Positions 3,052-47,819 of a stretch of 48,765 nt of DNA are shown here, piece by piece. Positions within the stretch are counted from its first letter, which is position 1. Each line of letters begins with the position of its first letter. The stretch spans positions 1 to 48,765 of IMG/VR virus record IMGVR_UViG_3300050343_000170; one strand, written 5' to 3'. The position numbers and the translations under genes are program-made. Source of the DNA: a virus. The notes beneath the pieces were generated by a model. The model saw nothing but the letters and a program-made list of their open reading frames with translations, was not told where the DNA came from and ran no database searches.

Positions 3052-3245
3052 ATTCTAGCAAAATATGGTTAGATAGGTATACTATATCTGAATTTAAGAT
3101 GTCTTTTAGGGGATTGCCTTGCAAAACTAAATGTGACTGTTGTGAAAAGCTGTGGAACGATACAGGTACTAAAACAGTAAGTTACGCTATATCTACATCT
3201 GGTAAAGGTGTAAATATATGCCAATCTTGTGTAATTGATTTATAA
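3027..3245 (+). CDS. Small zinc-finger-like protein
   Basis: About 72 residues from the ATG at 3027 (GTG at 3021 is an alternative). It contains 'CKTKCDCCEKLW' and, about 25 residues later, 'CQSC', which would form a four-cysteine zinc knuckle. Such small zinc proteins are common in phage accessory operons and may bind nucleic acid or protein. It overlaps the preceding gene by about 25 bases. Confidence 0.6.
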   Translation: MVDKDFKIDSSKIWLDRYTISEFKMSFRGLPCKTKCDCCEKLWNDTGTKTVSYAISTSGKGVNICQSCVIDL

Positions 3246-9136: not shown

Positions 9137-9187
9137 CTTAGTGTAAGATGTACACTAAGATCCAGTTAGTGTAAAATATACACTAAG
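9137..9187. promoter_or_regulatory. Two palindromic operator-like sites
   Basis: Site 1 is CTTAGTGTA-N5-TACACTAAG (9137-9159). Site 2 is TTAGTGTA-N5-TACACTAA (9166-9186). The half-sites are the same, spacers are both 5 bases, and centres are 28 bases apart. This is what a dimeric DNA-binding protein would recognise cooperatively. The binding protein is unknown; the phage encodes several HTH candidates. Confidence 0.7.
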
Positions 9188-9340
9188 TAATATTTTTTAT
9201 ATATGTAAAATTGTAATATGTTAAAGTGTAAAATTAATTTATTAAATGTTTGAATATGTAATTTTTTTTTATACGCGCGCGCTCGTTCATTTAGTATAGT
9301 CTTTTTTTATCATAACATATTACAAATAAAAAAATGTGTT

Positions 9341-29470: not shown

Positions 29471-30235
29471 ATGTGGACAGCATTAAAAACTACAGTTGGC
29501 AATACTATAAAGACCAACAATAATAACGAGATTACTGCCGAACAGGATCAGTTACTTAGAAAGTCTATAATAGACCAAATAGGAACTTATGAATTTGGTG
29601 GTGTATTAACTAGCCCTATTACTTTAGCTAGCCCAAGCTATGCAACTGACACGCCTAGTGCACTAGATAGAAAGAAGTATTGGTTTAATACGGCAGGTAC
29701 TTGGACTAACTTTGGAGGTGTAACTACATTGCTTGATGAGGTAGGTTTCTTATATAATCCAGCAGGAACTTGGCTAAAGGTAGTTTTGTTTAGCAATGAT
29801 TCATCTGCATCAACTAAAGTTGCAGGAGCTTGCAGTCTTATTGTTTTAGGTGATGTTGGAGCTTCACAAAGTTATACTGACACTTCATTGTTAACTATAC
29901 CTTTGAATACTACAGAGTCTAATCCACTTAATGTAGATTATGTTCAAACTAATACTGATGCAGTAAATATGCCAAGAGTATTAATTGCTGGGTATGTAAC
30001 TATTGTTGGATCTGTAACAATAAATGCATTAGAATTTCCTACTTCTGCCACACTGAGTATTATTGGTAGCAATGGTAACTCATTAAATAAACTAGTAGAT
30101 TTAAATAATCCAATGACAATTGACTTTAGTTATATTGTGAAAGCAGATATACAAGAAACATTCCATATGGTGTTGGAACTTAGTGATTCGCAAGATTTCT
30201 CAGTTATAACGGCAAATTTAGGTATCTTGGCGTAA
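29471..30235 (+). CDS. Tail tip or fibre-associated protein (254 aa)
   Basis: From ATG 29471; a GTG at 29426 inside the preceding gene would add 15 residues. It starts MWTALKTTVGNTIKTNNNNE, then 'SIIDQIGTYEFGGVLTSPITLASPS', followed by Thr/Ser/Gly-rich beta-strand segments. I recall this N-terminal pattern from tail genes of Bacteroidota prophages, but no family is named. Confidence 0.55.
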   Translation: MWTALKTTVGNTIKTNNNNEITAEQDQLLRKSIIDQIGTYEFGGVLTSPITLASPSYATDTPSALDRKKYWFNTAGTWTNFGGVTTLLDEVGFLYNPAGTWLKVVLFSNDSSASTKVAGACSLIVLGDVGASQSYTDTSLLTIPLNTTESNPLNVDYVQTNTDAVNMPRVLIAGYVTIVGSVTINALEFPTSATLSIIGSNGNSLNKLVDLNNPMTIDFSYIVKADIQETFHMVLELSDSQDFSVITANLGILA

Positions 30236-45046: not shown

Positions 45047-45343
45047 ATGAGATCAAAGGACTTAACTAAAGATCAAATACAATTTATCTTAGATAACAGA
45101 TTATTAATACCTATTTCCGAAATGGCTTTAATTACTGGTTGTTCTCGCATCACAGTTAGAAAACAATATAACAAAAAGCAATTGTCGTATTTAAATGATA
45201 AAGGTAAAATTAGACAGTTTAAAACTAAGGGAAAGATGGATATTGACGATCCTAGATATAAAGGGTATAAACCTAAAAACTTAACAAATGGTGAGAAAAA
45301 ACACATAAATCAACAAATAAAACCACCAGAAAGTTTTTTTTAA
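45047..45343 (+). CDS. HTH DNA-binding protein (98 aa)
   Basis: The segment 'IPISEMALITGCSRITVRKQYN' (residues ~22-43) reads as an HTH; the rest is basic and unstructured. It sits one gene before the structured RNA and the DUF6291 replication protein and could regulate that promoter. Its stop is directly followed by the TATATTTG element at 45345. Confidence 0.6.
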   Translation: MRSKDLTKDQIQFILDNRLLIPISEMALITGCSRITVRKQYNKKQLSYLNDKGKIRQFKTKGKMDIDDPRYKGYKPKNLTNGEKKHINQQIKPPESFF

Positions 45344-45344
45344 T

Positions 45345-45352
45345 TATATTTG
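45345..45352 (+). promoter_or_regulatory. -7 element for the structured RNA and replication genes
   Basis: TATATTTG, immediately after the stop codon of the preceding gene. Transcription would begin about 45357-45360, exactly at the first paired base of the RNA below. No clear -33 TTG is present. Confidence 0.5.
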
Positions 45353-45357
45353 CTAAA

Positions 45358-45498
45358 TAATTGTACGTCTGACTGCAAGTACAACCAAGAAAACAAAAGC
45401 TCAATTGAGTGGTAAGTGTCAGACCTTACTGCTTGGTTGGGCTTTCCCTATTTTAAACGCATAACAATTACAATAACGGTTATTACAGGGTTTTTTTT
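45358..45498 (+). ncRNA. Candidate structured RNA with kissing loops (unnamed)
   Basis: Hairpin 1: TTGTAC (45361-45366) with GTACAA (45379-45384); its loop starts GTCTGAC. Hairpin 3: GTAAG (45412-45416) with CTTAC (45425-45429), extendable by G-T and G-C pairs; its loop contains GTCAGAC (45418-45424), fully complementary to loop 1. CCAAG (45385-45389) pairs with CTTGG (45432-45436), and AAAGC (45396-45400) with GCTTT (45441-45445), crossing it. The 3' part has CCCT/AGGG and AATAA/TTATT pairings followed by eight T (45491-45498), like a terminator. The next ATG is at 45521. Confidence 0.55.
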
Positions 45499-45520
45499 AA
45501 AAATAAAACAAACAAACATT

Positions 45521-46465
45521 ATGGCAAAAGACAAAAAAAGCTTTGTTCTGTACGCTGATATGATATATTCTATAGAGTACTTAACCAATGAAGAAAAGGG
45601 TATACTTTTTCAGCATATTTTGGAATATGTAAATGACATGAACCCTGTTATGGAGGATCGGTTGATACTTACAGCATGGAAACCTATAGAAAACCAACTT
45701 AAAAGAGACCTAGATAAGTGGGAAAATAAAAAATGTAAATTTAGTCAAGCAGGATTAATGAGTGCTAAATCTAAAAGATTGCAAAAAGGTAGGCAATTGT
45801 ACATATTAAAGGTTTCAAATAATGAAGAGTTTTTTATCAAGGTAGGCATTACTGATAGTTCTGTTGGCAGAAGATTTAGTTCAAAAGATACTTTTAAAGG
45901 AACTGATTATAAATTTGAAATAGCTTATCAATTTTTTATAGAAAACCCTCTAAAGTTAGAGGAATCTATTAAAGAGAATTATGGCACTTTAAGATATAGT
46001 CCATTACAAAAATTTGGTGGGCATACCGAGTGTTTCTGTTTAGATGCGCTTAACGATATTGTACAATATTCAACAAAGTTTAACGATGTTGAGAATCGTT
46101 CAACGAAATTAACTGTAAATGTTAATGATAATGTTAATGATAATGTTAATGATATAAATAAAGAAAAAGATAAAAAGAAAATTGTCGCTAATGCTCCTAA
46201 ATCCAAATCTTTTAAAAGCAAAACTTACAAGCAATGGACAAATGAGGACTTTAAGAAAGTACTGAGTTTATTTAGAGGTGAACATAACGATCAAACTCTT
46301 AAAGATTTTTACAGCTACTGGAGTGAACCTACTGCAAGTGGTAAAATGAGACTTACTACAAATAAATCTTGGGATACTAGTCGCAGGTTAAAAACTTGGA
46401 CACGAAACAATTTTAATAACAATAGTGCGACAATAGATAAAAAAAATTACAATGCAAGAAGATAA
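45521..46465 (+). CDS. DUF6291 replication protein with inserted GIY-YIG-like domain
   Basis: 314 residues from ATG 45521 (a GTG at 45416 lies inside the RNA structure). Residues 1-85 match DUF6291 ('KKSFVLYADMIYSIEYLTNEEKG', 'AWKPIENQLKRDLDKWE'). Residues 90-175 read 'GRQLYILKVSNNEEFFIKVGIT...GRRFSSKDTF...ECFCLDAL', a GIY-YIG/T5orf172-like nuclease fold with Tyr94-Ile95 and Val108-Gly109-Ile110. The C-terminus ('FKKVLSLFRG', 'FYSYWSEPTASGKMR', 'DTSRRLKTWTRN') is the usual end of Bacteroidota-phage replication initiators. The linker has a 12-base repeat (VNDNVNDNVND). It overlaps the helicase gene by 14 bases. Confidence 0.75.
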   Translation: MAKDKKSFVLYADMIYSIEYLTNEEKGILFQHILEYVNDMNPVMEDRLILTAWKPIENQLKRDLDKWENKKCKFSQAGLMSAKSKRLQKGRQLYILKVSNNEEFFIKVGITDSSVGRRFSSKDTFKGTDYKFEIAYQFFIENPLKLEESIKENYGTLRYSPLQKFGGHTECFCLDALNDIVQYSTKFNDVENRSTKLTVNVNDNVNDNVNDINKEKDKKKIVANAPKSKSFKSKTYKQWTNEDFKKVLSLFRGEHNDQTLKDFYSYWSEPTASGKMRLTTNKSWDTSRRLKTWTRNNFNNNSATIDKKNYNARR

Positions 46466-47819
46466 AGAGCCAAAAGCAATAGAGTCTGAAGAGATTGTTA
46501 TAGGTAACTTGATAAATACAGGATCTTTATTTATTGTGTATGAGTCTAGGCTTACACCTAAATGCTTTTACTTAAATGAGCATAAAGAGATATACGCTTC
46601 AATGAAGAGGTTGTTTAAAGCAGGTTCTGCTATTGATATGATAACGATAATGGAAGATCTAAAGAAAGCTAATTTATTTGAATCTATTGGGGGTATAAAC
46701 ATCATGCTAAAGCTATCAAACCCTACTACATCTCTTGGTATAGAAAGTCATGTTTCGATTATTGTCGACAGATTTAAAACAAGGGAAATTATAAGACTTA
46801 GCCACCAGGCATTGAGTGAATCTTACAAGGGCAATAAACTGAATGCTGAGATAATAGCTAATCTTGAGCGAGGTTTAAATGAATCTGTAGATACCACTCC
46901 TGTTATGTCACTAGCAGATATACAAAGGCAATTTTTGGATGAGGTTCAAGGAAAAACTGAGTCTGGAGTAAGTATTACAGGAATAAAGTCAATAGACAAG
47001 ATGGCTACCGTTAGAAAAGGCAATTTAGTAGTGATTGGTGCTAGACCTTCTATGGGTAAATCTATGTTTGCTACTACAATACAGAATAATTTAGCTAATC
47101 AAAATATGGCTGGCTTATTTCAAAATTTGGAAATGACTACTGTGGAAGGATGGAAGAGGACTGCTGCTTGTAGGTATTCAATAGATTTCTCTAAACTTAC
47201 AGATGGTCAAATAGTGCTAGGAGAGTATAATGCATCTCAATTTGACGAGCTATTTAGCATGATGGATAATTTATTTTTCTTTGATGACAAGACTGGAATA
47301 AACGCTTTATCCTTAAAAAGCAAATTAATGAGTATAATGGTTAAGACTCCATTGCAGTATTTAATTATTGATCATGGAAAGCTTATGAAACACAATATGC
47401 TGGCAGGTAATAAAAGATCTGACGAGGAGATTGGAGCTACCTGTAATGCATTAAAGGAGATTGCAAAGGATTTAAATATTTTTGTCATTCTGCTTTGGCA
47501 ACTAAAGCGACCAACTGGAGACGTTGTTCGTATTCCATCATTATCAGACCTTAGAGGATCTGGAGAAATAGAGGAATCTGCGGATATAGTGATGTTCTTA
47601 CATAGAGATGAATACTACGGAATAGAAGGGGCGGTAAATGGTAAAACTGATGTGGTAATTGCCAAGAACAGGAATGGAGACACTGGAGTAGTAGAATGCA
47701 CCTTTGTTCCAAATTACTCTAGGTTTGAAGATTTGCACGATGAAAACGATTGGATGGGAGTGTCAAAAGACGTTGTTGAAAATAAAATTGAAAAAAATAC
47801 TTCAAATATACTTTTTTAA
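46452..47819 (+). CDS. dnaB: DnaB-type replicative helicase
   Basis: 455 residues. The N-terminal domain ('IVIGNLINTGSLFIVYESRLTPKCFYL') is followed by a RecA-type ATPase with Walker A 'GARPSMGKS' (196-204), 'LEMT', Walker B 'YLIIDH', 'LWQLKRP' and 'GSGEIEESADIVMFLHRD'. It unwinds DNA at the phage fork and is normally loaded by a partner; the DUF6291 protein just upstream is the likely loader or initiator. Confidence 0.92.
   Translation: MQEDKEPKAIESEEIVIGNLINTGSLFIVYESRLTPKCFYLNEHKEIYASMKRLFKAGSAIDMITIMEDLKKANLFESIGGINIMLKLSNPTTSLGIESHVSIIVDRFKTREIIRLSHQALSESYKGNKLNAEIIANLERGLNESVDTTPVMSLADIQRQFLDEVQGKTESGVSITGIKSIDKMATVRKGNLVVIGARPSMGKSMFATTIQNNLANQNMAGLFQNLEMTTVEGWKRTAACRYSIDFSKLTDGQIVLGEYNASQFDELFSMMDNLFFFDDKTGINALSLKSKLMSIMVKTPLQYLIIDHGKLMKHNMLAGNKRSDEEIGATCNALKEIAKDLNIFVILLWQLKRPTGDVVRIPSLSDLRGSGEIEESADIVMFLHRDEYYGIEGAVNGKTDVVIAKNRNGDTGVVECTFVPNYSRFEDLHDENDWMGVSKDVVENKIEKNTSNILF

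Follow-up and report, generated by a model that had tools for sequence, protein, structure and literature searches.

Phage HK022 begins its early transcripts with the put antiterminator RNA, which consists of two RNA hairpins of conserved sequence and, to our knowledge, has neither a kissing-loop contact nor a terminator U run. Two leader hairpins whose loops are in contact also form the guanidine-II riboswitch (mini-ykkC), which is in Rfam and has a fixed ligand-binding loop sequence, and the retroviral DIS and the kissing loops of ColE1/plasmid copy control are intermolecular, with a loop-loop helix of six to nine bases. The element described here resembles put in having two hairpins at its predicted transcript start, but it also has a kiss and a U run; unlike guanidine-II its loops change sequence, with complementarity alone being kept. 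It shares with the DIS and ColE1 loops the size of the loop-loop helix and the purines flanking the kiss in the loop of the second hairpin (GAA-GTCAGACC), although here the kiss is predicted to be intramolecular and to lie within a terminated leader. Judged by analogy, the nearest functional counterparts in phages would be P4 CI RNA and IsrK, as they are presented in PMC4825925. P4 CI RNA, a product of leader processing, is a trans-acting antisense RNA; IsrK of prophage Gifsy-1 acts in trans on the translation of its own read-through transcript (PMC4825925). The arrangement described below is like P4 CI in placing a structured leader RNA with complementary segments, and predicted premature transcription termination, before phage replication genes, but its complementary loops lie in cis and the second hairpin would itself be the terminator. 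It is like IsrK in that one phage promoter would give both a short terminated RNA and a read-through mRNA, and unlike it in the kissing double hairpin, none being described for IsrK in the parts of PMC4825925 that deal with it.

The window analysed is the whole of IMG/VR virus record IMGVR_UViG_3300050343_000170 (48,765 nt, positions 1 to 48,765), and this 48.8 kb encodes tail, portal, recombination and replication genes. An upstream ORF ends at 45343 and is followed on the + strand by the window copy of the kissing-hairpin element (45345-45445), formed of a promoter box, a 5' hairpin (H1), a linker and a second hairpin (H2). The box, TATATTTG (45345..45352), is a putative -7 promoter element of the Bacteroidota type, and 8 nt 3' of it H1, TTGTAC(GTCTGACTGCAA)GTACAA (45361..45384), begins at about the position where transcription would be expected to start. 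An A-rich single-stranded linker of 11 nt (45385..45395) leads into H2 (45396..45445), in which AAAGCTCAATTGAGTGGTAAG and CTTACTGCTTGGTTGGGCTTT form an uninterrupted 21-bp stem around the 8-nt loop TGTCAGAC; RNAfold predicted this stem to be perfect, including six G-U pairs, at -25 kcal/mol for H2 alone. Within the H1 loop lies GTCTGAC (45367..45373) and within the H2 loop GTCAGAC (45418..45424), which are exactly complementary over 7 bases. The tail (45446..45498) has a poor T tract, CCCTATTTT, directly 3' of H2, then an AT-rich spacer and last a T8 run (45491-45498), 45 nt beyond H2. Downstream on the same strand are a DUF6291 gene for a phage replication protein (45521..46465; PF19808, Pfam 6e-17, PHROG 19415) and a gene for a DnaB-like replicative helicase (46452..47819; Pfam 1.1e-55).

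The kissing-hairpin score of 46.5 for 45345-45500 was not reached by any of 3000 dinucleotide shuffles (best 34.0), and the fold z-score of the element region was -2.66. The preliminary description had reported the box, H1 and H2 with kissing loops complementary over 7 bases, the T8 and a replication-type gene, and this core held up. It had also proposed a CCAAG/CTTGG pairing and a crossing AAAGC/GCTTT helix, both of which we dropped: AAAGC/GCTTT is simply the base of the H2 stem, and CCAAG/CTTGG competes with the 21-bp H2, which it would have to break. The T8 of its terminator-like end is present, but in relatives the terminator is H2 itself and not a later T8. We regard an in-frame GTG ORF that crosses the H2 loop (45416) as incidental.

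In BLASTN comparisons with cultured phages neither the window leader nor either of two canonical elements had a match. Near-identical contigs were all that came back from DNA searches with the window leader and from single-protein searches started from the genes downstream and upstream of it. Using an alignment of the DUF6291 domain (A2) we obtained 80 viral and 26 genomic loci, many of which, by eye and then with a hairpin-pair scan, showed the same anatomy in a different sequence just 5' of the gene. The scan, which looks for two hairpins with complementary loops, was run over the 700 nt upstream of 109 DUF6291 genes and gave scores of at least 36 at 26 of these loci, while the reverse strand and the shuffles each yielded a single one; many DUF6291 phages have no recognisable element. 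A promoter is not required by the scan, and a promoter-like box accompanied 15 of the 32 real hits scoring at least 34 and none of the 8 shuffled hits. A DNA pattern made of the promoter box and the two kiss segments only, with no condition on genes, then recovered 48 viral contigs, 46 of them clear members; the pattern hits L138 and L153, and a model hit at L157:2498, were discarded as chance. The covariance model R1, built from 25 relatives with the window excluded, found the window at 46 bits (E=6e-8). In individual phage records we found between one and four elements, and weaker model or scan matches were present in the cultured Flavobacterium phage 11b, Olleya phage Harreka_1 and Cellulophaga phage phi13:2. 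The Harreka_1 element is at 30070-30174 of its record, and that of phi13:2 lies upstream of the DUF6291 gene at 3089-3191, on the minus strand. Non-exhaustive searches of hosts with strict filters detected none by pattern in 199 Flavobacteriaceae genomes and, with model R2, one copy in 149 such genomes, on the small contig L213 before an ORF reading like a phage replication initiator. Because this was the only copy in the 149 host genomes, and precedes such an ORF, the family looks phage-borne.

The pairing of the element is retained in relatives while its sequence changes. In an unfitted MAFFT alignment of 25 relatives (A4), 89.9% of stem cells were paired, compared with 67.6% after shuffling, two-sided changes occurred in 16 of 18 stem pairs, and H2 was predicted de novo from the relatives' alignment. 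In a 66-member alignment, which is fitted in that members were aligned to the model, 95.7% of cells were paired (62% when shuffled, with no shuffle reaching 95.7%), there were 422 two-sided changes against 118 in shuffles, and sliding the partner by one column reduced pairing to about 46%. These changes affect 25 of the 26 pairs, including all 5 pairs of the H1 stem, which was 93% paired; the outer and inner stems of H2 both covary in the relatives. The kiss helix was 97.6% paired with 7 of its 8 columns changed on both sides, a figure for which 20-22 of 64 rows were set aside, because alignment of the kiss columns was incomplete among weaker members. Covarying pairs were what the preliminary description had proposed to seek in related phages, and far from keeping the position and losing the pairing, the relatives keep the pairing as the kiss sequence changes.

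Among 37 non-training R1 hits, 35 had loops complementary over 6 bases or more, representing about 30 different sequences, and 24 over 7 bases or more, whereas swapping partners between hits left at least 6 bases in 11% and at least 7 bases in 3%. A natural experiment is provided by L041, which is near-identical in DNA to L042, L044, L045, L046 and L048 and differs from them by two compensated swaps in the kiss, the H1 loop going from ATGCAG to CTGCAT while the H2 loop goes from CTGCAT to ATGCAG. Across the family there were 102 G-U against 9 A-C combinations, and therefore the + strand RNA is the constrained molecule. Where one phage carries two elements these have different kiss sequences, as expected for a contact made in cis. 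We consider the fold and the family to be well supported.

Members of the family have in order a promoter box, H1 starting about 5-8 nt after it and so near the expected transcription start, a linker of about 8-29 nt that is A-rich and then U-rich, H2 and usually 4-8 U. In H2 a symmetric purine-rich internal loop separates an outer stem of 8 bp from an inner one of 5 bp, and in the hairpin loop purines stand ahead of the kiss segment; in most members the U run makes H2 an intrinsic terminator in form. The internal loop, about five pairs below the kiss, is mostly UGAA/GGAU and sometimes reversed; each of its strands has GA in 46 of 64 members, and we do not treat it as strictly required for membership of the family. 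In L128, L143, L158 and L160 it is GGAU on the 5' side and UGAA on the 3' side. This suggests selection on the local shape of the tandem G-A loop rather than on its sequence. The window H2 is the counterpart of the relatives' terminator hairpin, but it has continuous, partly G-U pairing in place of the G-A loop, and only a poor T tract directly 3' of H2 where relatives have their T run. Judging by its sequence, then, the window copy is a divergent, atypical member with a displaced U run. Since it has no G-A loop and its T8 lies so far past H2, termination at this copy may be weak or relocated.

A same-strand start codon follows the element at a median of 16 nt, and the distance is no more than 26 nt for 50 of the 61 distinct genes; in the pattern-selected contigs the latter spacing held for 23 of 37 elements compared with 3 of 24 other terminators. 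The genes are varied and mainly concern DNA replication and nucleotides, the list comprising DUF6291, DUF1376, Prim-Pol, BT4734-like primase N-domain, thymidylate synthase, DEAD/SNF2 helicase, N6/N4 DNA methylase, NUMOD4-HNH and DUF6378 genes together with small unknown proteins. The DEAD/SNF2-type helicase genes headed by an element are in L060 (from 427), L067 (from 344) and L028 (from 268); in all three phages a DUF6291 gene lies further on, and L028 has a second element there. Many viruses of Bacteroidota-type bacteria appear to begin their replication-gene messages with the same small folded RNA. The window element is best explained as belonging to a new structured-RNA family and forming the 5' leader of a phage replication operon.

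From the promoter box, the fold, the covariation of stems and kiss, the terminator form of the relatives and the start-codon spacing, all of which are read in the sequences themselves, we infer that the family RNA is transcribed, terminated and read through in a regulated manner, so that the family probably acts as a switch. In a specific form of this, which in our estimate has about an even chance of being correct, the element is a promoter-proximal attenuator of transcription: H2 would be an intrinsic terminator and the kiss would tie it to H1. Transcription would start at the TATATTTG promoter so that the RNA begins at H1 or a few nt before it, the emerging H2 loop would pair with the H1 loop, and H2 would then zip up. 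In typical members H2 and the U run would act as an intrinsic terminator, most transcripts would end as an RNA of ~100 nt with hairpins at both ends, and only read-through transcripts would carry the gene that starts a few nt later. How often RNA polymerase reads through would be set by the kiss with help from the tandem G-A internal loop, and replication and nucleotide genes would thereby be switched in their timing or dosage. A promoter of its own and a terminator just before a start codon are the anatomy of an attenuator, with read-through the route to the gene from that promoter, and the U run is so near the start codon that a second promoter would not fit between them, which makes the gene dependent on read-through. 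The consensus structure of RNA truncated at the H2 loop is the kiss helix itself; since the kiss can form before the 3' arm of H2 is made, it could affect H2 folding. Apart from this helix forming first in the nascent RNA, we found no conserved antiterminator or alternative helix in the family. The kiss is compatible with the terminator stem, which counts against an attenuator in that it leaves the effect of the kiss on read-through unexplained. Further points against it are the displaced T run and missing G-A loop of the window copy and the many DUF6291 phages in which no element is recognisable.

The same anatomy, with its own promoter, hairpins at both ends, strong T runs and a compact tertiary contact, would also suit a stand-alone small RNA, a terminated product of ~100 nt that would act in trans, either on targets in phage or host or on a protein, with the downstream genes expressed only via leaky read-through or read-in. 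We think this unlikely, as the element is almost always just 5' of a same-strand start codon, in front of unrelated genes, and the loops that would have to recognise targets are already engaged with one another and vary freely in sequence. A location at the transcript start, at the head of early or replication operons, and a structure that is kept more than its sequence, with the G-A internal loop in 46 of 64 members, would fit a cis antitermination RNA in the manner of HK022 put, which would stay with RNA polymerase and resist its own and later terminators. That H2 with its U run is a terminator in its own right, and that the sequences which could contact polymerase vary, make it a rather improbable reading.

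The mutual complementarity of the H1 and H2 loops means that two molecules can also pair in trans, and the kisses diversify strongly, even within one phage, as specificity codes would. Each phage leader could on this basis have its own loop-loop code, with the terminated short RNA pairing with nascent leaders of the same code and promoting their termination, which would give copy control or superinfection immunity like that of P4 CI or plasmid copy-control RNAs. If true, the kiss would serve as a tag of specificity that is free to evolve, for the timing of replication, for copy control or for the exclusion of related phages. We hold both the coding and the autoregulation to be quite improbable, since the intramolecular kiss should outcompete pairing in trans and the diversification fits simple drift of a cis contact as well. 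The preliminary description had itself offered an undescribed kissing-loop leader, for which the covariation and the tight start-codon placement now speak, and a decoy, of which we found no sign. A chance fold, or a DNA-level element such as replication-origin hairpins with no RNA function, gains something from the adjoining replication genes, but it is already contradicted by the kiss complementarity, the shuffles (0 of 3000), the two-sided changes in 25 of 26 pairs and the excess of G-U over A-C. The strict placement between promoter and start codon, and the occurrence before non-initiator genes, also argue against it, and we give it hardly any weight.

Consistent with the earlier statement that no known family matches, the window had no match in Rfam 15 above the gathering threshold, with chance-level matches only at relaxed E-value, and none was found at the element in 29 relatives' loci, guanidine-II, c4 antisense RNA, 6S-Flavo and Flavo-1 included. 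In the open-access literature we found no paper on DUF6291 and none combining kissing loop, phage and Bacteroidetes. A large human-microbiome candidate-RNA set includes Bacteroidetes terminator-type motifs (PMC8040213), and while we call the kissing double hairpin a new RNA family, and the system a new form of phage leader control, it may overlap an unnamed candidate among the motifs of that set. A widespread and strongly covarying family of this kind, sitting where replication operons begin, would add a new class of leader RNA to Bacteroidota-type phages, and would give a handle on the timing of DNA replication in these poorly studied phages. As the kiss varies yet stays complementary, the family is also a ready-made natural collection of orthogonal loop-loop interactions, each coupled to a terminator, and the elements in the cultured, sequenced phages Harreka_1, 11b and phi13:2 make attenuation testable.

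Three further observations were made in the relatives and the window. At L029 2845-3000 and L033 2290-2428 a different arrangement follows the promoter before DUF6291, in which GGAGAGG.../CCTCTC comes before an AACTC stem and a clear terminator of the H2 type is lacking, and this is possibly a degenerate or alternative leader. At 9173-9261 of the window there is an AT-rich hairpin tandem with 6-base loop complementarity and a long T run, but no promoter box; it is weaker and may be of chance origin. The window DUF6291 protein has a T5orf172-type (GIY-YIG-like) domain inserted after residue ~90 (within 45521..46465; Pfam 4.5e-4, endonuclease PHROG 681), which is absent from the aligned DUF6291 relatives (Harreka_1, 11b, phi13:2 and elemoC) and may be a homing-endonuclease-like insertion in a replication gene.
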